Below, in pieces: positions 12,251-22,874 of a stretch of 64,000 nt of DNA. The notes below the pieces were generated by a model. It worked only from the letters and a program-made list of their open reading frames with translations, did not search any database and was not told the origin of the DNA. The stretch comes from Cladorhizidae sp. MBARI D1340-BT2 (lineage: Eukaryota > Porifera > Demospongiae > Poecilosclerida > Cladorhizidae), in assembly GCA_028752905.1 (NCBI GenBank), contig JAQNBH010000014.1:21919990-21983989 (forward strand), given 5' to 3'. The translations under genes and the position numbers were made by a program. Every line of letters starts with the position of its first letter. Position 1 is the stretch's first letter.

Positions 12251-12259
12251 GGGCTATAG

Positions 12260-12425
12260 GCGACCCTTTTCCTTTCAGAGTGAAAAACACTCTGGCGTGC
12301 GCGACCTTTTATTACGAATTTTGTTATGTAGCGAGATGACAAATGAACTCTGACCTTTTCAAGCGCCGTGTCCTCGTTAGCGCATGCGCACAATATGTGC
12401 ACTTTGACCTTTTCAGAAACTTTTG
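12260..12425. repeat. left terminal inverted repeat of the MULE-type segment
   Basis: Contains TTATGTAGCGAGATGACAAA, then the GCGCCGTGTCCTCGTTAG stretch and the palindrome GCGCATGCGC at 12380-12389. The same run in reverse complement lies at 22740-22833. The outer part (12260-12322) is poorly conserved between the two ends. Confidence 0.8.
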
Positions 12426-12881
12426 AACTTCGAATGGACGGATGAACCATAGATCTTGGAGGTATAAGATCTATGGATGAACATAATCCTTTGTCCCATT
12501 GATGCAAGTGTCTTGCTGCTAGCAAGGTAATTTAAACACATGACTAGATACACCTCCCTTTTAACCATTATAGTGACTAGCTAGATACTTTGCTCCTCCC
12601 TAGCCAGGATATATTGTATGACTAGATGCTTCAGCTTTACTCTTACCCCAAGGAATCTGCTGGCCAAATTCTTCTCTATAATAGCTGTATGTGTAATAGC
12701 TGTATGTGAGTTATTCATTGAGACAAGAAAATGTGTTTGTTCAATTTTTCTCCTATAAAGAATTTTTTTTTATTGTTCATAACTGTAAAACCAAAAACAT
12801 GTAAAAAAATCACATTAAATAATAAATCTCCTCCAGATATCTGGTATTAGCTACAGTTCCCATCACGCTTGCAGCATTGCC
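12426..12881. other. spacer between left inverted repeat and RT gene stop
   Basis: AT-rich sequence that would hold the 3' UTR of the reverse transcriptase gene. On the minus strand an AACAATAAAAAAAAATTC stretch near 12758-12775 is a candidate 3' A-rich tail of a non-LTR insertion. A short duplication of TAATAGCTGTATGTG lies at 12680-12710. Insertion junctions could not be fixed. Confidence 0.4.
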
Positions 12882-15800
12882 TCATTGCACAGCAACACTT
12901 ATCGACTGGAGCAAGTACTGGGTCCCTCTCTGCTCTCCGGTTTCCGCAGCGATCCTTCGGCCAATTTCCTGGACTAACTTCAGTCCTCCCGGTCCCCATG
13001 GTCCAAGGGTCTCCACGCAGACTGGTTCGAGGATGTAGTCTCGCTGAAGGTTGGCGTACTTCATCAACTTGGCCTTCTCTGCATTTTCAGCGACTTTACA
13101 GGGGGCAATTGATGAGGTAGCAATATGACTAGGCGCCAGGGTGTCAGAGCAAGTGTAGTCCCAAATCATGATCCGTCCATTTTTCCAAGGAAAAATCGTC
13201 ATGCCGTCTGGTCTCTTCCCATCGGTTCGACTAACACCACTGGGCTCAAGGACTGAAGGAATGTGAGCAGTTGACAGAGCTCGCTTGATGAGGTCGTTGA
13301 TTTGAGCGTGTCTGGCAAATCTCCCTGCGCTCTTCTTGCAACTCAAACCATGTGTTCCATTTGACTCCACCTTAGTGCCGCATATACAATCATGAGGATG
13401 GCACAGGGGTGAACCAAGACGAAGAGCGCTAGCGATCCTGAGCTGATTCTGGTCCATTTTCAAACCGAGTGACGGAATAGGAATCGCATTCAACCAATCA
13501 GACGCGTGAGGAGAAGAGACGGCCAGGATCCTTGCTTTTTCCATGTCTGATTGTGTATCTTCAAGTAGATTTTTTAGTTTCAGTTGACATAAGGGAGTGT
13601 CCCAGGCAGACTGGACAGGTAATTGCAATGGGGGCTCTGCGGTGTTCATCAACTCCTTCCACCGAGAGATGGCAGTGTCTAGTTCAGGGTACTCTCCTCT
13701 TCGGAAGGAGTCAGGAAGAGCATCAAGAACTCGAGGTTGAGAGGCATAGACTGAGGAAATAAAGGCTGGCAGGGATAAGTCAACAGCAGATCTGATTCCC
13801 ATCCCGCCCAAGCCAGCAGGGAGCGAACATTGGTTCCAAATCTGAGGTGTAATCAGAATGTTGAGAATATTTTCGAGTGAGGATTTGATGTTTTCATCGT
13901 ATAGTTTCAAAATAGATGACTCAAAGCAGGGTGAAGATCTCAGGAAGTAAGACAATTTCGGGATCGCAAAACAGTTTTTCAACAAGAATAGTGCATCATG
14001 GGCATCAATCTCCACTAGCCTAGAGAGCATTCTGTTGAGGTCATCTAGTTTGTGTTGGAGTACATGATCTGTTGCTGAAGACAATATTGGGGCTCCAAGG
14101 AGAGTGAGGTCTTGTTCGTCCACGATCTTAATCTGAGGCGCCAACTCTTGGAATTTGCGCGCAGTCAGTGCGACGTCTTCGCCACCGATGATCACCAGTT
14201 CGCACTTTGCAGGGTTCACAATGACTCCATGTGAGTCTCCAGCCTCAATGATCTTTTTAAAATCCGAGAGAACAGTGTCAGCCTCTCCACTCAGAGTACC
14301 GTCATCCAAGTACCAAATATTCAGCTCACTTTGGCAGTCTTCAACAATATCCTGGATTGCAAGTGAGAATAAGAATGGGCCTAATGGGTCTCCTTGCTGC
14401 ACGCCCTCTTTTGACAACAAAGTCTCGCTCCCAAAGTAAAGATTTGAAGGTTTAAAATAGGATTGCCAAACAAAAGGATAAACGGACTTGTTTTTGTCCA
14501 GGACTTTCTGTAGCACAACGTCTCTCCGCACAGAATTGAAAGCATTTTTGAAATCAATCTTGAGTAGAACTTTCCTTTTGGAGTCTTCATTAGTGAGGAA
14601 TCGTCTGCAGGCATGTGTCGCTACTTCAGCGCCTGAAGGCATCCCTACTCCCATTTGATGAGGTCTGAAAGATGAAGAGCATGAATCATTGAGTTTTCTC
14701 ATGGTGGCCTTCACAGCGAGGCGTCTCAAAGTATTACCCATCGCAATCGGCCTCACGCCTCCATCCTTCTTTGAGAGGGCAACCAGAGTAGCCCCATAGA
14801 ATATAGGACAAACAGAAACAGGTACTTTTCCACAGAGCACAATACCATTCAGGAACTTTAGTAAAGCTTCAAGCAGTTTCTTTGACACATCTCCCAGAGC
14901 ATCGGAGGTAAGGTCTTTTAAATGTTGTGGGAGCAACCCATCTGGCCCTCCTCCTATTCCATTTTTGAAAGAGCTTAAACTTTTCTTCACATCATCCATT
15001 GAGAGAATCATCGAATCAGAACAATCTTCAACAGTAGGAGGTTCTGGCAAATCAGAATGGACATGTGGTTCGGGGTGTTTTTGTTTGAGTTGCTCAATAA
15101 TTTCAGGTGTGCTTTCTAGTAAGGAACAATCAGAAGAAAGAATTCTCACAGCTCCCCGGACATCCCCCGCAGCGAGCTTGACAGAAACTAGTGAGGACAG
15201 TGATTTTGATGATTTTTTAGGATTTTTGGCAGGCAAGTCAGCAGGAGTTTGTAAGTGAAGGTTTTCGGAGAAATCTTTTATTTGATGGTTGATAAGAGTT
15301 GCTAGAGATTTTGATTTCTTTCCGCAGCGAACTCTGTTAGGGTTCAAGAAACATATTCTGGCGAAGTTGAGGAGGTTTTCCCATGCAGGTATACTGTTTT
15401 CTAGCACGACCCTATTGAGGATATCTGTCAACAACTTAGCGGCTTGGAACCTTGAGGCTTTAGGAACCCTTCTAAGTACAGTCCCAACACGTGAAAATCT
15501 GAAAATGGTAGGCGCAGGAGTCTGTGTAGGGGCACCTTCACCAGCAACAACATTATTTTGACTAGCAATTGCAGTAGCAGCATTTACAGCATGTTGAATA
15601 TCAGAAGCTTGGGGATGAGTATGGGGGGCAGGGCGACAACGGGGGCAGATCCATTCATTCAGAACATCAGCTTGTCTCTTTGTCAATTTTACACATGTCT
15701 GGTGATACCAAACACTACACAAATCACACAAAATCCAGTTCCGTTTGCCCTGTTCACCACATTTGCCACAGAGATCTAGAACTGATCTGATGGAAGCCAC

Positions 15801-16046
15801 TAAAGGTATTTCCTTCTCCAACACTGCACTTTGCGGTGGGCACTTCAAAGCTGCATGACCGTCCGCTGAGGCTGAAGCTAGAGTGTGTGCAGTAGACAAA
15901 AAATCAGCCAAACACCTCTGCTGCAGAGGTGAACTACCAGTAGAGCTGCCAGTAGTTCCTGAACTCGGGGGTGCGCATGAAATAGAGTTAGGATTCTCTG
16001 TGGAGAGTAATTCTTCCGTTTTAGATTTGAAAGTCAGCGGTTCCAT
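12882..16046 (-). CDS. PHD-finger reverse transcriptase with REL-type C-terminus (non-LTR element)
   Basis: A single uninterrupted 1054-residue frame. Residues ~90-137 are a C4HC3 PHD finger (CGKCGEQGKRNWILCDLC, then WYHQTC and EWICPRC). Residues ~380-660 are a reverse transcriptase: LKIDFKNAFNSV (motif A Asp), GVQQGDPLGPFLFSLAI (motif B) and WYLDDGT (motif C, LDD in place of ADD). Near residue 885 comes a Cys/His cluster (CICG...GTHGLSC). It is followed by RPDG, then MIWDYT and KAKLMKY, a D...D...K arrangement like the restriction-like endonuclease of R2/NeSL-type retrotransposons. No apurinic endonuclease and no LTRs are seen. One ORF with RT then zinc cluster then endonuclease is the architecture of the REL-type non-LTR group, but an N-terminal PHD finger is unusual there. 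All catalytic residues look intact, unlike most neighbours, implying recent activity. Clade assignment is inference. Confidence 0.85.
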   Translation of the reverse strand: MEPLTFKSKTEELLSTENPNSISCAPPSSGTTGSSTGSSPLQQRCLADFLSTAHTLASASADGHAALKCPPQSAVLEKEIPLVASIRSVLDLCGKCGEQGKRNWILCDLCSVWYHQTCVKLTKRQADVLNEWICPRCRPAPHTHPQASDIQHAVNAATAIASQNNVVAGEGAPTQTPAPTIFRFSRVGTVLRRVPKASRFQAAKLLTDILNRVVLENSIPAWENLLNFARICFLNPNRVRCGKKSKSLATLINHQIKDFSENLHLQTPADLPAKNPKKSSKSLSSLVSVKLAAGDVRGAVRILSSDCSLLESTPEIIEQLKQKHPEPHVHSDLPEPPTVEDCSDSMILSMDDVKKSLSSFKNGIGGGPDGLLPQHLKDLTSDALGDVSKKLLEALLKFLNGIVLCGKVPVSVCPIFYGATLVALSKKDGGVRPIAMGNTLRRLAVKATMRKLNDSCSSSFRPHQMGVGMPSGAEVATHACRRFLTNEDSKRKVLLKIDFKNAFNSVRRDVVLQKVLDKNKSVYPFVWQSYFKPSNLYFGSETLLSKEGVQQGDPLGPFLFSLAIQDIVEDCQSELNIWYLDDGTLSGEADTVLSDFKKIIEAGDSHGVIVNPAKCELVIIGGEDVALTARKFQELAPQIKIVDEQDLTLLGAPILSSATDHVLQHKLDDLNRMLSRLVEIDAHDALFLLKNCFAIPKLSYFLRSSPCFESSILKLYDENIKSSLENILNILITPQIWNQCSLPAGLGGMGIRSAVDLSLPAFISSVYASQPRVLDALPDSFRRGEYPELDTAISRWKELMNTAEPPLQLPVQSAWDTPLCQLKLKNLLEDTQSDMEKARILAVSSPHASDWLNAIPIPSLGLKMDQNQLRIASALRLGSPLCHPHDCICGTKVESNGTHGLSCKKSAGRFARHAQINDLIKRALSTAHIPSVLEPSGVSRTDGKRPDGMTIFPWKNGRIMIWDYTCSDTLAPSHIATSSIAPCKVAENAEKAKLMKYANLQRDYILEPVCVETLGPWGPGGLKLVQEIGRRIAAETGEQRGTQYLLQSISVAVQ

Positions 16047-16389
16047 TGAGAATTATAGCTTCCACATTTGCTGAGGTATATAGAGTTCAAGTGCAAACTA
16101 ATTAATAAACGCAACAAGTCTCTTGTAAATATAGCTAGCTAGCTTCGTCAAGAGACGGCTATACCGTAAACTTGCACTTCAATACATGGATTTGTTCAGT
16201 TTAATTTCTCTAAAAAATCAGAATCAGATGTTCGTACCCAAGGCATTTAGTAGTTTGCGTAGCCAGACCCTTTACCTTCTCACTCACAACACTCGAAACA
16301 CGGATTTGGCAGGCCCACACAAGCGGATCCTGAGACATTGTTATTATTAAATACAGCAATTTTAATTCATATGTTTGCAGGTCATTTAG
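16047..16389. other. junction between RT gene and MULE-type gene
   Basis: About 340 bases separating the RT start codon (16046) from the MULE-type gene stop (16390), both on the minus strand. It would contain the RT element's 5' UTR and the transposase gene's 3' UTR. GCTAGCTAGC palindromic words lie near 16134-16146. No exon seen. Confidence 0.5.
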
Positions 16390-17150
16390 TTATAAATCAA
16401 TTCTTTTGGGATCATCTTTACCAGTAAGTTGAGGTGGTACTTCACAAACTTGGTCACTCTCCATTGATATAATTGCTTCATAGTGACTTCGATGATGGTA
16501 CATTTCAATGTGACTGATATCTTTCTTTTGTTTCAGATCTTCATCTACAATCACAGGAAATGTCAAGTTGTTTGGTGTGATAGGATGAAAGACACTCCAA
16601 GTGAAGGAACTACTTTGTTCTGACCAGATACAAAAGTAGATGGGTAGCTGGAAAAGCGTAGCAGCTGCTTTGATTTCAAGGTGAGTCCCCCAAACATATG
16701 GGTGGTTCATGTGTTGGACTTGTTCCTCGATGGTTGGTCGATTAACTGGCATCAAATACTGGGAGAATACTCCAGAATTAAGGTTTATAAGCCTGACAAT
16801 GTGGCTTCTAATGGGAAAGTGATGATCTTCAGTGTTTAGAAAAGCATATGATATTGTGCGAAATAAGCAGTTCCCATCTCCCAGTATAGGATGAAGTTTT
16901 CGTCCACTGATTTGGAGAAAATTATCGATGGAATTGTTGCTGGAAGTAGACTGGCTTGACATTATTGGTTTGGTAGGAATTACTGATGTTTTAGTATCCT
17001 TGCTAGTTAAGAGCTGGCATATTTTCAGCTCACAACACTTCTTTCGCTTCCCTGGCCCTCCAAACTTGGGCTTGTCTTTGCAGAATACACAAACTCCACA
17101 ATCCAATCGTTTGCACCTCTCACAAGATCCACATCTTTTCCTCTTCACTC
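16390..17150 (-). CDS. C-terminal exon: CXXC zinc finger plus OTU-type cysteine protease
   Basis: The acceptor TTGTTCCAG lies before 17150. The exon opens GVKRKRCGSCERCKRLDCG, followed by CVFC and KFGGPGKRKKCCELKIC. The CGxCxxC...CGxCxxC spacing and the KFGG motif are diagnostic of CXXC fingers (CFP1/KMT2A/TET-type). After a Ser-rich linker comes an OTU fold: GDGNCLFRTISYAF (catalytic Asp and Cys), then HLEIKAAATLFQLPIYFCIW and HYEAI (catalytic His). All three OTU catalytic positions are present. The usual role is cleaving ubiquitin-like conjugates; the substrate here is unknown. The exon ends at TAA 16390. Confidence 0.88.
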
Positions 17151-20100
17151 CTGGAACAATCACATATAATTACTATATGTGTAGACACTTTCTAAATACA
17201 ATCTTACCAGATTTAGCCGTGTTTGAACTTGATGTTGAAGCGGTTGTTCTTTGTGAATACTGTAATGGTACAGTATGCATACACCAATGCTTTGAATCAG
17301 TGGTGGTATCTTTATAATTACATATATGGTACTTTTTTTACAAGTATTACAGATTACCTCATTGTGTTTATCTGTTGTTGATGATCCACTTTTCCTCTTC
17401 ACTCCTGGCACAACTATGTGATTTTTTGAATTTGAGGTTGAAGCCTTATCTGTTTGCTTGTTCTGTAATGGTACAATTTTCATAGCACCGATATCCATCG
17501 TGCATGGTTGTCTTATGAAAACTCTAGAATTAATAATAAATTACCTCATTTTGGTTATCTGTTGATAGCTCTTGAGTAGTTGATAGCTCTTGTGTGGCTG
17601 TGTTTATTGTTGTCTGGGTATAGGAATAATAAGTAGCTAGCTGAAGTATTAGTGTTGTGTGTTTCCTTACATTATCCTCTGTTTCCAATTCAACCAGAAT
17701 ATCTCTCCTTTCATCGCTATTGGCATGTCTTCAAATTTTTGCATAGCTTCATAAATAATGTCTATATATGTATTATGATATAAATGATACTAACCTGAGT
17801 ACCAGTCCTTTTTTCTTTCTACCTGGTGCCTTGCTTGTTATCTGGAATCGCCATTGATGTTCCAACTTTTTGTTTGGTGCTATTTTTTCACTTTTGAACT
17901 GCTCTGCACATGACGTCTCAGAAGACATTGCAGCTGTGCAAGTTAGTACAGCGTTGTGTAGCAGAGAATTGATGTGAGGGAGAAAAGAATGTACTGGGGT
18001 GTTCTCAAGAGTAACTGCCTTTTCCAATTCTTTCATGTATGACTGAAAAGTCATTAGTTGAAATGTCGGGTCTATAATAATCAAAATTATGGTATATCTG
18101 CATACAATGAATCATAGTTGTGCATACCTGTGGATGGATTCCTCACACTCTCAGCAAATTCAAGGGGGTCATCAATATCAGAATCACTGTCCGCTCCACT
18201 ATCATTGGGATAGGAACACTCAAAAGCACAATGGTTATTGGGCTCTTGTAATTTCAACCACATAGAGTGAGCTCTGTGTATGTGTTTACACAAGTTTCCA
18301 TTTGTGTAGTCATAGCAATACTTTCCACAAGTGTACATGTGGTAACAAAGCAGCTTGCATTCCCTTTGGGTGCACATCGTTGCTGATTCTTCAGTAGTAC
18401 TGCTACATTCAGTGCAAGATTCTTTTATCTGCTTAACTAAGTAGCCATCGGGAGTTCTAGCTGACATGCTAGGAATACGCCAAGTGCTACAATCAATAAC
18501 CTGTATTTGAGTGATATACAAATAGTATAAACGGCAAAATGGCATAGTATATGTTATAACTTTGCAAACCTCTACATTCCCTGCAGGAATAGCAATGGCA
18601 CGCAGGTGACTTGAATCTCTGGCTACGATTGGAAGCTGCCATTTTCTTCTATAGTTGAAGAAATTATCTTCCTCAATGCGGAATAACACGCTAAGTAAGA
18701 AATCCACTCTTCTGTTTACTTTCCCTTTTAGGTAGGTAGTTTTCAGTTTGTTGTGAAAGCTGCATGTAATGTACATACATACTCTAATAATGTTCATAGT
18801 GCAGTGCAAAGTGTATGACCAAGTGATAAGTACGTGCGTACCTCTCCAAGTACATGTTGGTGTCTGTATCAGCATGTGGAAAATGCCTGTGACACTTGGC
18901 CCATTTTTCTATTTAATCATTACCAAAAAAACAACTGAAGGGCAATATTCTGTTTGCTTATATACCAGGACGGCTTTGATACTGTTGTTTGAAGTAGTTG
19001 ATAAAATCGTGTTCTTTGCTGATCCAGTGTAGAATGAATTGATCCAATACAGTGTTGAACTTGCTCAAATTGTGTTCGTCAATCAGAATGCACAATGTTT
19101 GGTAAATTTTGACCTGATTGTCAGGTGTGCAACTCCTTAGGTGGTTCTTCCATGATCTGAATACTAGCATGTCATTTTATATACCAGTTAAAATTGTTCT
19201 GTACCTGTGAACATGCCAGTGGCAGAGTAAGTGCCTAAGTGTTGGTCCAAATACATGAGTTGCTGCATTCCAGGCAGTATTATCTGCAATTGAAATAAAA
19301 TATGCTGTTATGGTGAGTGAGCTGGAATTGAAGTAAAATATTTATACCATCATCAGTCATCAGTATAGAGACTGTTGATAGTGGTGACCGTTCTTGATGC
19401 TCTGTAGAAACAATTCCACTACTTCTGTGGTTTCTTGGTCAGATATGCACCAGGCTATTGGCTGTCCTAAATCATTATCACAGATCATGTATATTTATTA
19501 TTTTTATAACTGTATATATTATAGGTACCTTGGCCAAACTTGTCTGGAACAACACAGGTGATCAGCTTAAAGCGGTAAGCATTAGTACAGTGTGTACTAT
19601 CAATGCAAACTATTTTACTGCAAAATTGTCTGTAAAGTTTCATTTGAAATTCTGTTTGCACCGCTAGAACAAATGAATCTTTCACAAGTGTGGGGTGGTC
19701 TTCCAGAGTCATTCCTTGTGGTTTATAAATTAGAATTGGATCAAAAGGCTCTTGCTGGATTTCTCGCACAAGAATGCTGACAGACATTGCATCATTTTCA
19801 TGCCTTTTTATGTCTGTCCAGAACAGACACTCGGATGTTTCGAACATCTTGATTTGATAGGAAATGTTTTCGTGATGCAGCTTGGGAAAAATCTTGCCGT
19901 TTTGCACGATGGCCAACTTTCTCTCTAACATCTGAAATGTTATACATGCATGGTGTCATCTAATTTGAAGTTTGCCAATCGAAACCATACCTTCAAGTAT
20001 TCTTTCAGCAGGAATACCCTTGCTAACTTTCAGAGCCACTTCTCCTCGTATGCTTTTAGGCAGTGGAAGATGTGGTAGTTCTGCAACCCCTAGCTGGTGG

Positions 20101-22712
20101 TTGCTATGAGCCGTAATATACTGGACTTTCACATGATGGTCGAAATATTCATCCACATACATTCTAGATAGGCAGACATCATTTATCTTGCGGGTAGATT
20201 TTTGATGGAGTCTCTTTTGATCTGTTCTTCTCTCTGAGGAATTGTAATGATACTCACCATCGCGACAGCAAGAATAGTAGTAGGTGACCTTTATTGCTGT
20301 TTATGCAAATTACATTTAAAATAATAAATATGATTCTAATATGGTTACATTTACCATCAGTAGCTTTTGGCTGATAGGAAGTTTGTCGCTGTATGTATGT
20401 GGTGTATGTTGTTTCCTCCTCCAATCCTTTCCACTTGTGAAACTCTTCAATTGAATCAAATTTGAGGTTCGTTGTTCCTGCATTTGTAAGTGGAACCCAT
20501 TGAAACCAGTATTTGTTTTGTCCTTAACCGATTATTGATGATAGACGCAGATCTGTCTACGCATGCCCAACGCTATGCGCTGCTTTATTAAAATAGAATC
20601 AAACCTACATCCGGTTAGGGTATTTGGAAAGCAAAATTGAAGACCGCCGAAATTTTGAAGCTTCTCCAAAGTCTTTGGGTTTGGATCTTTACTCCAGTTT
20701 CTGGAAGCTCTTTTGTATCCAATATATATACTACATGTGTCTCTATTTAGCCATGGGTATACAACAGGTATAGACATTATATATACTACATGTGTCTCTA
20801 TTTAGCCATGGAGTACAACAAGTATAGATATATTATATATACTACATCTAGCACACTCCTGACCTAGATACATCTAGCACACTCCTGACCTAGATACATC
20901 TAGCACACTCCTGACCTAGATACATCTAGCTACACCTAGCACACTCCTGACCTAGATACATCTAGCACACTCCTAACCTAGATACATCTAGCACACTCCT
21001 GACCTAGATACATCTAGCACACTCCTGACCTAGATACATCTAGCACACTCCTGACCTAGATACACCTAGCACACTCCTGACCTAGATACATCTAGCACAC
21101 TCCTGACCTAGATACATCTAGCACACTCCTGACCTAGATACACCTAGCACACTCCTGACCTATATACACCTAGCACACTCCTGACCTAGATACACCTAGC
21201 ACACTCCTGACCTAGATACATCTAGCACACTCCTGACCTAGATACACCTAGCACAGCTCAGGTCTTTACTATCAAATTGTCGACTTCCCTACACCATCTA
21301 CACCATCATAGTTCTCTTGCAAATGTCACGTTTCTGCTGGATGGAGAGCACCTTCTTTTTCTTTTTACCTCGAAACTCCATCATGTTGTTGGTGGCTACA
21401 AGTAAACTGGCCGCACATGATCGACGTTCAAATTATTCCCTTTTTTTCTCGTTCGGATAATTGACAGTTTGGTTGATTGACGTTCGGATAATCGAGGTTC
21501 CACTGTAGTTCACTATTTAAAGGATCACTATCATGGGTTCCATACTCATCCATATGCATTTAGTTTGAATAGTAGTTCTAGCTTCTAATAATAACTTCAG
21601 AGTGCACATTATTTGGATAGCTTGTAATTATAACTTCAATGCCTAGTCTACTAAATAATCCTTCAATGCATCTCAGTTCAAGCACATTGCATTGGATTTA
21701 ACAAAAAAGAATTCAGGTTGTACTAGGCAAGCTGCTGAGTCTATGCTAGTGATCCTTACCATGTTTGATGCTAATAATAACTAGAGCTGACAAAATTATA
21801 GTATACCTACGGTTATATTTACCCAGTGAATCGTCGTGTGATGACTGACAATGACCCAACAAGAGTTTCATGGTACGGAATGGAGACAAGTCACACTTGA
21901 ATGGGCAGAAGAAGCGGCTAGCTTGTTTCTTGGTGTTCATTTCAAACCGATGTTCTTGTTCCAGGTGTGAGGACAGTCGATCTCTCCGTGAAAAGAATTT
22001 TCCACATGCTATACAGGAAAACTTCTCTTGCAATGCTTATGTGTGTATGTGTTAGTTTAATAATACAAGTATATATTCATGGATTAACATTTTTAATTTT
22101 GTTACCGTTGTCATGGTCACTTCTTGTATTGAGATCTAGATATTGTAGATAATCAATAATTATGGATTATACGTATGTTTTTGGTATTTACCATTGTCTG
22201 GGGCGTTTCGTGCCATAAGATCTAGACAATCATATATACGGATGTAGCATATATAAGTAAGAATTATGCACAATCTTGGAATTCTTGTTACCATTGTCTG
22301 GGACACTTCCTGCCTCTAGAGGCTCTGCCTTGACCAAGAGATATCCTGGGGAAAAAAGAATTGTTTTTGGCCTTCATGGGTTTACAAGGACAAGGGGGTG
22401 GTGCTTGGGGATGTCCCCTACAATTTCTGGGGAAACCAAATGAATGCAAATTAAGCTATAATGCTCAAACTTAGTAATTAACACCCCTTAAAATTAACAC
22501 CCCTGTCTATGGCCTTGTTCAGTTATAATAAATTTGTTACCAATGTCTGGGGCACTTCCTGCCCTGAAGATCTAAATAATCATAATCATCATTGGACACA
22601 TATTCTTGTAATTCCTGTTACCATTATCTGGGTCACTTCCTGCTTCAAGATCTAAAGATTCTGCACCAGCTACTAAGGGAAGCCCTGGGTCTTCAGCTGT
22701 TCTGGAAGCCAT
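16390..22712 (-). CDS. multi-exon MULE transposase: C2H2 - MULE - SWIM - CXXC - OTU
   Basis: About 19 short exons with good GT/AG sites read as one gene from ATG 22712 to stop 16390. In protein order: an acidic N-terminus; two C2H2 fingers (22026-21823); a block ending KWKGLEEETTYTTYIQRQ (to 20355); 20296-19991 with YYYSCCRDGEYHYN; a MULE core (19931-18842); a SWIM finger (18500-18127); linkers; a CXXC finger plus OTU protease (17150-16390). MULE landmarks are VCIDSTHCTN (first Asp), a MTDDDNTAW region (second Asp) and HLLCHWHVHRSWKNHL. Two apparent single-base frameshifts (about 19803 and about 19403) break the core, so this copy may be inactive unless they are sequencing errors. In known MULEs the transposase acts in the nucleus. 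The CXXC finger (binds unmethylated CpG in known proteins) and OTU deubiquitinase-like domain are unusual additions. Expression would start inside the right inverted repeat. Confidence 0.78.
17208..17707 (-). CDS. linker exons with tandemly duplicated exon modules
   Basis: Short exons at 17707-17671, 17613-17545, 17462-17358 and 17259-17208 join the SWIM region to the CXXC finger. Two are internal duplicates. Two introns end in the same TGTACCATTACAG acceptor. The exons after them encode STSNSKN- and STSSSNT-like stretches. A VVPGVKRKSGSS segment precedes the real CXXC exon's GVKRKRCGSC. The donors share a QNE/HNE|GTAATxT context. These look like tandem exon-intron duplication that produced a spare, cysteine-less CXXC lead-in. 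Confidence 0.6.
17795..18500 (-). CDS. SWIM-type zinc-finger exon and following linker exon
   Basis: Exon 18500-18127 is bounded by AATACAG and CACAG|GTATGC. It encodes VIDCSTWRIPSMSARTPDGY, then CTQRECKLLCYHMYTCGKY and NGNLCKHIHRAHSMWLKL. The CxC...CxH-like pattern with a GNLCKHIH signature is the SWIM finger typical of the C-terminal half of MULE transposases. An acidic SGADSDSDIDDPLEFAE tail follows, then exon 18071-17795, which begins PTFQLMTFQSYMKELEKAV and has a basic KAPGRKKKG end. Splice phases are compatible. Confidence 0.75.
18570..19931 (-). CDS. MULE transposase core exons
   Basis: Exons 19931-19529, 19466-19348, 19283-19205, 19156-18966, 18908-18842 and 18759-18570 form the catalytic region. 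Read in order they give DVREKVG, RKHFLSNQDVRNI, then after a slip KRHENDAMSVS, PFDPILIYKPQG, VCIDSTHCTNAYRFKLITCV, PDKFGQ, QPIAWCISDQETTEVVELFL, SPLSTVSILMTDDDNTAWNA, FGPTLRHLLCHWHVHRSWKN, LDQFILHWIS and LERSFHNKLK. This is the usual order for a DDE MULE transposase. Frame slips occur at an A run near 19803 and at AAGAACGG near 19403; flanking exons remain in phase. Confidence 0.8.
19991..20520 (-). CDS. exons N-terminal to the MULE core
   Basis: The exon ending at 20355 (donor GATG|GTAAAT) encodes KYWFQWVPLTNAGTTNLKFD then EEFHKWKGLEEETTYTTY. The next exon, 20296-19991 (acceptor TAAACAG), encodes VTYYYSCCRDGEYHYNSSER, then VQYITAHSNHQLGVAELPHL and KGIPAERILE. The F-x2-W-K-G-x-E-E and YYxxCxRxG pattern is the pre-core region seen in animal MULE-like proteins with an N-terminal C2H2 finger. 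The 5' limit of the first exon is uncertain (about 20520). Confidence 0.7.
20726..20840. repeat. short tandem duplication (~55 bp)
   Basis: TATATACTACATGTGTCTCT plus ATTTAGCCATGG and ACAACARGTATAGA occur twice, at about 20726 and 20781. They lead directly into the 26-bp array. Lies in the intron between the zinc-finger exon and the next exon of the MULE-type gene. Confidence 0.75.
20845..21256. repeat. 26-bp minisatellite
   Basis: About 15 copies of a 26-base unit CCTAGATACATCTAGCACAC followed by TCCTGA, with C/T variation (CATCTAG/CACCTAG) and one partial unit. It sits in an intron of the MULE-type gene and expands it to ~1.3 kb, where neighbouring introns are mostly 60-120 bp. There are no unique spacers, so it is not a CRISPR-like array. 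Confidence 0.93.
21451..21505. repeat. solitary pogo/Tigger-like terminal repeat
   Basis: The minus strand reads CAGTGGAACCTCGATTATCC from 21505, the common end of pogo/Tigger elements, followed by GAACGTCAATC. A nearby TTCGGATAATTGACAG word is a related internal repeat. No partner end or transposase was found nearby, so it is a fragment. It lies in the same intron as the 26-bp array. Confidence 0.6.
21823..22026 (-). CDS. C2H2 zinc-finger exon of the MULE-type gene
   Basis: Acceptor GCATTGCAAG and donor CACTGG|GTAAAT. It encodes FSCIACGKFFSRRDRLSSHL-EQEH (C-x2-C-x12-H-x4-H) and FFCPFKCDLSPFRTM followed by GHCQSSH, a second finger with C-x3-C spacing. Tandem C2H2 fingers at the N-terminus are plausible DNA-binding modules for terminal-repeat recognition. 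Attribution to the MULE-type gene rests on strand, splice phase 1 at the donor, and location. Confidence 0.72.
22040..22712 (-). CDS. first exon and repeated mini-exon modules of the MULE-type gene
   Basis: ATG at 22712 opens MASRTAEDPGLPLVAG...DLEAGSDPDN and reaches donor GATAATG|GTAACA after 22622. Four more copies of the exon end plus donor (consensus GATCTNNAGGCAGGAAGTG, then CCCAGACAATG|GTAACA) follow at about 22545, 22295, 22190 and 22105. They are each preceded by an AG and spaced by introns of 50-200 bases. They look like tandem duplication of a ~30-bp mini-exon with its splice donor. Not all preserve phase, so which are spliced in is unclear. Confidence 0.55.
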
Positions 22713-22734
22713 GCTACACTCCCGCCAGTTGAGC

Positions 22735-22874
22735 GGTTTCTGAAAAGGTCAACGTGCAAATGTTATGCGCATGCGCTAACGAGGACACGGCGCTTAAAAA
22801 GGTTAGAGTTCATTTGTCATCTCGCTACATAACGGGACTCCTTTATTACCTGCGCGCAGAGGTGGCTCACCTAC
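22735..22874. repeat. right terminal inverted repeat and likely promoter region
   Basis: Inverted copy of the left repeat; conserved from 22740 to 22833. It lies 23 bases upstream of the MULE-type gene ATG (22712), so transcription of that gene must start within or beside it. It contains GCGCATGCGC at 22767-22776. Confidence 0.8.
22767..22776. promoter_or_regulatory. NRF-1-like palindrome in the right terminal repeat
   Basis: TGCGCATGCGC equals the known metazoan NRF-1 (alpha-pal) half-site palindrome. It occurs at both ends of the element (also 12380-12389), 54 bases before the ATG here. A promoter role is inference from position and motif. Confidence 0.45.

Follow-up and report, generated by a model that had tools for sequence, protein, structure and literature searches.

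A Mutator-like DNA transposon of a cladorhizid sponge whose split gene probably encodes a transposase ending in a CXXC–OTU exon

The locus and the limits of the element

The window (i.e., the whole stretch of 64,000 nucleotides that we analysed, from the sponge Cladorhizidae sp. MBARI D1340-BT2) carries a Mutator-like (MULE) element at 12316-22840, the limits of which were set by comparison with other copies. Among the printed left ends of these copies, 26 stop at one base (12316), and the right ends do so in four of four cases (22840). The original prediction had described inverted repeats of about 100 bp at both ends. These repeats are real and extend, in the window, over 12323-12429 and 22727-22833 (107 nt, 91% complementary), but their limits had to be moved, the other copies lengthening both to 12316 and 22840. 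The left (3′) terminal inverted repeat (TIR) is placed at 12316-12422 on the plus strand and the right (5′) TIR at 22734-22840 on the minus strand, so that the element has the long TIRs of a MULE, with termini common to its copies. Such long TIRs are usual in MULEs, albeit not universal.

Directly beside these termini stands a target site duplication, with TTTTATTAC (12307-12315) abutting the left TIR and CTTTATTAC (22841-22849) abutting the right one; the two agree at 8 of 9 positions. In all four other copies read at both ends, the 9-bp duplication is perfect and adjacent, and its length falls within the 8-10 bp characteristic of MULEs. The alignment of genomic copies, which had been proposed as the means of fixing the ends, thus gave both the termini and the duplications. 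It also removed the 9-bp direct repeat GGGCTATAG, formerly taken as the border: its only occurrences within the window, at 12251 and 22875, fall beyond the termini, by 56 and 34 bases, and we reject it as a coincidence.

A non-LTR-like retrotransposon, overlooked in the original prediction, is nested in the element (12746-16183, minus strand). It contains an ORF with PHD and RVT_1 domains (12882-16052) and is bordered by the target site duplication TTCAAT, at 12740-12745 and 16178-16183, the second copy being counted inside 12746-16183. This insertion is missing from 29/29 other loci read there, which go straight from 12745 to 16178, and its ORF was thus rejected as a component of the MULE. 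Without it, the MULE measures about 7.1 kb.

Structure of the gene

On the minus strand, a 17-exon model with GT/AG junctions and consistent phases encodes 1174 aa and unites C2H2, MULE, SWIM-like, CXXC, and OTU parts. As predicted from the sequence of the locus, its junctions are good and its start lies just inside the right repeat, the first ATG being found some 21 bases from the inner edge of the right TIR, at 22712. Exon 1 (22622-22712) carries this start codon and exon 2 (21823-22035) the C2H2-like fingers, whose best Pfam match, zf-Di19 (1.4e-4), is below that family's cut-off. Intron 2 contains a 26-bp minisatellite (20840-21260), which the other copies have as well. Exons 3 and 4 (20522-20355 and 20296-19991) encode a C-C-H-H region that is WRKY-GCM1/FAR1-like by eye and has no Pfam match. 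The transposase core then occupies exon 5 (19529-19931), with the CIDSTH motif and the catalytic D371; exon 6 (19348-19466), with MTDD; exon 7 (19205-19283), where both the MTDDDN motif and the MULE domain end; and, beyond exon 8 (18966-19156), exon 9 (18842-18908), with the catalytic E546. It is followed by exon 10 (18570-18759), by exon 11 (18128-18500), which encodes the SWIM-like finger, and by exon 12 (17795-18071), a post-SWIM region that aligns with animal MULE relatives. Exons 13-16 (17728-17671, 17613-17545, 17462-17358, and 17259-17208) form a partly duplicated linker, in which the borders of exon 13 are tentative. Finally, exon 17 (16390-17150) encodes the CXXC finger (about 17151-17017) and the OTU domain (about 16881-16465), and ends with the stop codon at 16390-16392.

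In the window copy, exons 5 and 6 have small deletions that break the transposase frame of the model and that the original prediction had not noted; relative to the C6 copy, these exons lack 2 bp and 1 bp, respectively. The model gene is unbroken in 0/5 full copies, which lends no support to present activity.

Transposase core and zinc fingers

The joined protein exceeds the Pfam cut-offs for MULE, ZSWIM1-3_RNaseH-like, CXXC, and OTU, with E-values of 9.8e-14 for MULE (PF10551), 4e-9 for CXXC, and 3e-8 for OTU. The MULE/DDE core is supported by this PF10551 match and by its DDE residues: the CIDSTH and MTDDDN motifs, which had been read as transposase motifs, align with D371 and D433, and the third catalytic residue is E546, all three being invariant in 10/10 aligned proteins (the window's plus nine relatives, P0001-P0009). 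SWIM fingers are frequent in MULEs, and one had been announced here. What we found is a SWIM-like variant, in which C668, C672, C681, and H683 align with invariant residues of the nine relatives, with the spacing C-x3-C-x8-C-x-H instead of the standard CxCx(n)CxH; the Pfam SWIM model is not reached. The proposed search of the joined protein against Pfam therefore recovered MULE, CXXC, and OTU and left SWIM unmatched. A FLYWCH N-terminal domain is present in some Phantom members; none is among the five Pfam families reported for the joined protein at E up to 0.1.

The CXXC finger and the OTU domain

Exon 17 was said to hold a textbook CXXC finger and an OTU domain with all three catalytic positions, and both domains are borne out. 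Taken alone, this exon matches CXXC at 1.1e-10, over positions 3-48 of 48, and OTU at 6.2e-9. The profile recovers the Cys pattern and the KFGG motif of zf-CXXC, and the CFP1 chain is matched at 3.4e-10; in the predicted structure, the CXXC part is poorly folded (pLDDT < 50, residues 1-76). For OTU, the profile, the predicted fold, and the sequence agree. The catalytic positions are Asp98, Cys101, and His229 (numbering of ORF 17169-16390, His229 being counted by eye), and the nearest fold is OTUD3 (E 3e-9, TM 0.84 by target), OTUD1 and DUBA also being near.

CXXC fingers read unmethylated CpG DNA in other proteins. The likeness to CFP1, MLL, KDM2, and DNMT1 lies in the finger with its KFGG motif; these are, in contrast, host chromatin proteins, and the loops of CFP1, MLL, and MLL2 (KMT2B) have Q where the window element's family has K. 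That the finger reads CpG is plausible in view of the CpGs kept in the TIRs and of the CpG-richer insertion flanks described below, but the loop has K for the usual Q. Fold and catalytic residues suggest that the OTU domain may deubiquitinate. We consider it rather unlikely that SUMO or another ubiquitin-like protein is the substrate, or just the binding partner, of the OTU domain, and that the CXXC finger has a general DNA-binding or structural zinc role without CpG choice. The relatives P0005 and P0008, with an Ulp1-type protease (PF02902) at the C-terminal place, and the replacement of Q by K would fit such roles. However, OTUD3, OTUD1, and DUBA, the nearest folds, are enzymes that act on ubiquitin, and Q is retained in 13/15 aligned sequences that have the CXXC loop.

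Probably one gene of one element

The CXXC-OTU exon lies downstream of the MULE exon, on the same strand and at 2.4-5.4 kb, in 37/43 MULE-exon places, and the left TIR arm is present at 27 of 29 exon loci, the window's not being counted. Against a single unit count the six MULE places (6/43) without the CXXC-OTU exon, the 13/50 CXXC-OTU places without a MULE exon upstream (12 of these on contig C7), and the two exon loci L037 and L038, where no left TIR arm was seen. Nevertheless, the exons keep together inside the same TIRs in tens of copies, and we reject the possibility that CXXC-OTU and TIRs are separate units. The predicted single gene, in which one MULE-type element combines C2H2, MULE, SWIM-like, CXXC, and OTU parts, is thereby supported, as far as genomic sequence allows.

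Alternatively, the CXXC-OTU part could be a separate second gene of the element that has a start of its own; like the additional ORFs known from other MULEs, it would be produced alongside the transposase and would work in trans. This arrangement we hold to be unlikely. Several relatives (P0016, P0017, P0019, and P0020) have an ORF listed with an ATG start at MKRKRCG, and the exons in the interval 17795-17150 are all short and in part duplicated, the borders of one being tentative. On the other hand, exons 11 to 17 share the same strand, with open phases and GT/AG junctions; the window copy has no ATG at that place, where it reads GVKRKRCG; and in P0024 the translation upstream of CXXC resembles, by eye, a pyrimidine tract leading up to an acceptor at the corresponding position.

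Retention among relatives bears on whether the exon is a passenger, i.e., a captured host fragment without function, in the Pack-MULE style. MULEs do capture host fragments (PMC6446971, in the text available), and the absence of any unbroken gene among the full copies would be in line with it. Yet, CXXC and OTU are both retained in relatives at 45-69% identity. There are 21 protein matches to the exon, 13 of which are listed with both domains. In an alignment of 18 members (the window plus 17 of the 21 matches), OTU is matched in 18 and CXXC in 15; Cys101 is found in 18/18 and Asp98 in 17, and 14 have the histidine of HY[ED] or HYDx. Moreover, CXXC followed by OTU recurs in a second, remote MULE lineage of the same genome, which carries CXXC, followed at three places by OTU. 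A passenger is thus highly improbable.

Eight remote loci carry CXXC or CXXC-OTU (L071-L078); within the 4.1-4.5 kb of upstream sequence covered, tblastn found a MULE, of the second type, at one of them (L074), and a local HMM found no MULE at any of the eight, L074 included. Scans of viral and prokaryote contigs found no relatives. The OTU tree (18 short sequences) does not decide whether the MULE lineages share one capture.

CpG content of the ends and of the insertion flanks

The TIRs are rich in CpG: the left one has 6 (o/e 1.22) and the right one 9 (o/e 1.55), the o/e being 0.17 and 0.36 in two stretches of the body and 0.43 over the window. On the other hand, stretches of 107 nt with 6 CpGs, as in the left TIR, make up 8% of the window, and those with 9, as in the right TIR, 1.2%. 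Among 126 CpGs of the left TIR in 21 copies, 2 read TG, 2 CC, and 3 are gaps, other sites being changed in 23/1982; CpG decay is thus not clearly raised in this sample.

The target site consensus, about RTTNNNAAY, is A+T-rich, so any choice of CpG would have to be regional. We compared the left flank of 20 distinct insertions, one per site, with control loci at round coordinates (19 of 20 kept, one with N being dropped), a stricter set that replaced an earlier control of 40 windows, some without a value. The flanks are richer in CpG than the 19 controls (p=0.0015, confounded and uncorrected for multiple tests), and their CpG o/e differs as well (p=0.0056, likewise uncorrected). Against CpG targeting, the window overall has 2.0 CpG per 100 nt, similar to the insertion flanks, and MULEs favour genes (PMC6446971, in the text available).

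Proposed mode of action

In the scheme that we propose, binding of the TIRs would fall to the N-terminal zinc fingers, and cutting and insertion of the element to the DDE core. The CXXC finger would tether the complex to unmethylated CpG, either in TIRs escaping methylation, in CpG-rich open target DNA, or in both. The OTU enzyme would take ubiquitin off the transposase itself or off chromatin or repair proteins in its vicinity, and this removal would prolong the life of the transposase complex. With these roles included, we consider it probable that the element is a DNA transposon of the MULE type, about 7.1 kb long, and that its split gene encodes a transposase ending in the CXXC-OTU exon.

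A bolder version starts from KDM2B-type Polycomb complexes, which ubiquitinate histone H2A at unmethylated CpG islands. The element would then be a CpG-island-directed deubiquitinase carrier: CXXC would bring OTU to unmethylated CpG islands, where the loss of ubiquitin would keep the chromatin of the target, as well as the CpG-rich ends of the element itself, accessible for transposition. The CXXC-OTU pair would be a mobile anti-silencing module that arose, or passed between MULE lineages, on more than one occasion. We regard this version as very doubtful.

How transposases cope with the methylation of DNA and with protein turnover is little known. In this element, a DDE transposase joins a finger of the CpG-reading type and a domain of the ubiquitin protease type on one conserved exon; the exon also occurs in other sequence collections, and the second MULE lineage has a divergent form of it. 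If both domains work, DNA transposons could tell unmethylated ends or targets and resist ubiquitin-based control, and the long-standing problem of the MULE preference for open, genic DNA would become testable by domain removal. Excision and reinsertion have been assayed in yeast for Muta1 (PMC5225508).

Comparison with known elements

MuDR-6_HM of Hydra (Cnidaria) is a MULE described with an "Ovarian Tumour Gene", in group 14 (PMC6446971, Table 1), and thus resembles the window element, by table description, in its OTU. It differs in that Table 1 gives it no zinc finger and no TIR; the comparison is by description, and the word CXXC is absent from the available text of PMC6446971. The suggested link between OTU and Phantom does not appear in that table, where the OTU-bearing MULE is MuDR-6_HM, apart from Phantom (group 20). 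The Phantom elements are likewise animal MULEs with target site duplications of 8-10 bp, SWIM in some, and a minisatellite in aphid members; they differ, by description, in that Table 1 lists neither OTU nor CXXC for them. Ginger1 and some Helitrons also encode an OTU or Ulp1 protease, C-terminal in Ginger1, but have other transposase types, and CXXC is not mentioned in the available text of PMC2836005. Both MULE+OTU (MuDR-6_HM) and MULE+Ulp1 are therefore already in print. A MULE with CXXC was not found in the literature searched, in agreement with the original prediction, which knew of no described MULE with both CXXC and OTU.

The nearest transposases are those of the animal ZSWIM1/3 kind (P0001-P0009), which have in common the MULE core, a SWIM or SWIM-like finger, and the post-SWIM region, with 28-34% identity to the first sequence; several have, by eye, N-terminal C2H2-like fingers, as in the window element. 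They differ in their C-terminal part: neither CXXC nor OTU is among the Pfam domains listed for 12 matches, P0005 and P0008 carry Ulp1 instead, and P0005 ends also in a PHD-like finger (by eye). The sources of P0001-P0009 include Penaeus indicus, Bemisia tabaci, Planococcus citri, and Nesidiocoris tenuis.

Element Limits and Copies

The MULE-type DNA transposon, which we located on contig C5 of the 857-Mb assembly G000, is real and multicopy, and the original prediction was correct in substance. A direct search of the window gave inverted repeats of 107 nt each, 91% complementary. Copy searches of the assembly returned 88 rows with the MULE exon and 147 with the CXXC-OTU exon (i.e., exon 17, minus strand), the best 20 and the best 30 of which, respectively, were examined as loci. 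Of the 29 exon loci that remain when the window's own is set aside, 27 carry the left arm of the terminal inverted repeat (TIR), L037 and L038 being the exceptions. We aligned 26 of these 27 left ends (L058 was left out as the twin of L057), representing 20 distinct sites, the remainder having duplicate flanks. Aligning other copies, as had been proposed, placed the termini at 12316 (left) and 22840 (right), common to the 26 left ends and to all four right ends aligned, and gave a target duplication of 9 bp. The 90 nt beyond the ends are unlike the window in the aligned copies, and the whole-element comparison, where it reaches the left end, stops at most 13 bases from 12316. The duplication is perfect in all four copies with both ends read and matches at 8/9 positions in the window, and the consensus of the 9-mers at the 20 sites is about RTTNNNAAY. 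The repeat originally taken as the 9-bp border, GGGCTATAG, is situated outside these true duplications.

The window copy also carries an insert of 3.4 kb. In all 29 other exon loci, the alignment skips from 12745 to 16178, and the insert (12746-16183, minus strand) contains a single frame of 1056 aa with a PHD finger N-terminal to a reverse transcriptase, and has a 6-bp duplication (TTCAAT) at its borders and a short run of A residues close to the 3′ end. This stretch is a retrotransposon inserted into the window copy; the C6 copy, which is without it, measures 7079 bp.

The CXXC-OTU Exon as a Part of the Element

The CXXC-OTU exon belongs to the MULE element. Counting one place per copy, it lies downstream on the same strand at 37 of 43 MULE places, at a distance of 2448-3107 bp (5443 bp in one case). 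Neither list includes further pieces of a copy already counted or its wrong-frame rows; two MULE places with an identity of 52-56%, and exon rows that were short or remote, were also set aside. Hence, other copies do not present the CXXC-OTU exons as separate units, the outcome that would have spoken against the original prediction. The MULE exon is absent from 13 of 50 CXXC-OTU places, 12 of them on contig C7. Between 19.9 and 24.2 Mb, this contig holds 16 CXXC-OTU places of the main list, 12 without an upstream MULE exon; this cluster, in which some places have identical flanks, is a local duplication of element remnants.

Gene Model and Transposase Domains

Reading by phase and GT/AG junctions gave 17 exons on the minus strand. 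Exons 1-11 of the joined model were taken from the C6 copy, because window exons 5 and 6 are shorter by 2 and 1 bp; the borders of exon 13 are uncertain, one base being missing there in C6 and L041. The joined protein of 1174 aa has four Pfam matches, all of which exceed the curated cut-offs (MULE, 9.8e-14; ZSWIM1-3_RNaseH-like, 1.2e-13; CXXC, 3.6e-9; OTU, 2.7e-8). In alignment with nine relatives, the DDE residues (D371, D433, E546) and four residues of the SWIM-like finger (C668, C672, C681, H683) are invariant, the first Cys pair of this finger containing two residues more in the joined protein than in the relatives. By eye, N-terminal C2H2-like fingers also occur in several relatives (PF00096 is given for the related protein P0012), and this part therefore looks like a family feature.

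At 22083-22650, next to exon 1, LEAGSDPDNG and variants of it form short repeats that resemble exons; every one has a GT-like donor at its end, and they are possible alternative exons. A 26-bp minisatellite lies within intron 2 (20840-21260), in other copies too; the available part of PMC6446971 records minisatellites for aphid Phantom and Rehavkus.

Relatives and Fold of the CXXC-OTU Exon

In a search of 5.8 billion proteins, 21 of 117 candidates were relatives of the exon, 13 of them annotated with both CXXC and OTU, with 50-63% identity. Seventeen were aligned with the window (18 sequences, 45-69% identity). Cys101 (numbered by ORF 17169-16390) is found in 18/18, Asp98 in 17/18, and the catalytic His in 14/18, this residue being missing or past the sequence end in the other four; a rescan gave an OTU match in 18/18 and a CXXC match in 15/18. 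When the exon region was searched within the full protein (candidates of about 645-2054 aa), two proteins were matched: P0013, in which CXXC occurs together with PHD and HMG domains, and P0014, which ends in an OTU and by eye resembles the protein of another transposon. No full-length MULE-CXXC-OTU protein was therefore found among these candidates. P0005, a MULE protein from a eukprot source, has Ulp1 followed by what is, by eye, a PHD-like finger, a further pairing of a ubiquitin-like protease with a chromatin finger at the C-terminal place.

The OTU part of the structure model (block pLDDT 82-95) matches OTUD3 (E 3e-9, TM by target 0.84), and also OTUD1 and DUBA. The CXXC part has a pLDDT below 50, and its predicted fold is assigned from sequence. 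In the loop KFGGPGKRKxCC, Q is found in 13 of 15 sequences and K in two (the window and P0019). Structures solved for CXXC domains show this Q facing the CpG; K in its place calls for caution about a putative CpG choice by the CXXC of the window's family.

Other CXXC and MULE Lineages

Ten places in the assembly match PF10551 above cut-off, the window's own family being absent because its domain is intron-split. In seven, a CXXC match follows on the same strand no more than 7 kb downstream (probability by chance, about 0.0005 for each place); in an eighth, C8:14688230, the CXXC is broken by a frameshift. OTU stretches follow the CXXC in three places, i.e., C8:14688230, which retains DGNC and CHYS, C8:36110401, which has lost DGNC, and C1:11881912 (partial). 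With the window's protein, tblastn aligned only one of seven such second-lineage transposases (C6:5061307, E=0.01), and an HMM of the animal family reaches three at 1e-7 to 4e-9 and others weakly. In a further type (L071, L073, L074, L075), CXXC lies near OTU, with a MULE upstream, by tblastn, in L074 only. The OTU tree is too rough to separate one capture from several. In another repeated CXXC family (18 of 112 CXXC rows; e.g., C3:35940570, C4:11862272, C9:6725472), the open frames are 59 aa long and their scores are the same or similar, with no OTU row nearby by eye.

In the available parts of the literature, MuDR-6_HM is listed with 'Ovarian Tumour Gene' (PMC6446971), and OTU and Ulp1 tails are described for Ginger1 and Ulp1 for Mutator elements, with a suggested role in transposition (PMC2836005). 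The available text contains no use of CXXC in PMC6446971 and none of OTU or CXXC in PMC10027918, and no MULE joined to CXXC appeared in the titles and abstract starts of the literature searched. The MULE with a CXXC-OTU tail would be a known kind of element in a new form, with a putative function.

CpG Content

The CpG observed/expected ratio is 1.22 (6 CpGs) and 1.55 (9 CpGs) in the TIRs, 0.17 and 0.36 in body stretches, and 0.43 in the window, where 8% of 107-nt stretches contain at least 6 CpGs and 1.2% at least 9. This low ratio, together with a TG+CA value of 1.24, suggests a state as in methylated genomes. Insertion flanks have a median of 2.0 CpG per 100 nt vs 1.0 in controls (n=20 and 19, p=0.0015); the mean is 2.8 over the 200 nt next to the insertion and 1.95 over the following 200. 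The window itself holds 1282 CpGs in 64000 nt (2.0 per 100; median tile, 1.5), and therefore gene-rich ground alone may explain the excess.

State of the Copies

None of the five full copies has an unbroken model gene, and the lesion sites differ among them: exons 5-6 in the window copy, exon 10 in C8 (where exon 2 is longer by 3), exons 1 and 11 in C7, exons 2 and 4 in C13, and only the doubtful exon 13 in C6. Among 26 full-length CXXC-OTU exon copies compared by blastn, which include that of the window and some sites that are duplicated, 15 are free of internal stops ahead of the final one; among these 15, the tested catalytic motif is altered in two (L041, L046) and the tested CXXC string in three (L037, L039, L043). 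Opposite-strand MULE exons about 1-1.4 kb apart form two head-to-head pairs on C13 (15.210 and 15.342 Mb), the inverted join being visible in L015 and L027, and one tail-to-tail pair on C15 (1.472 Mb).
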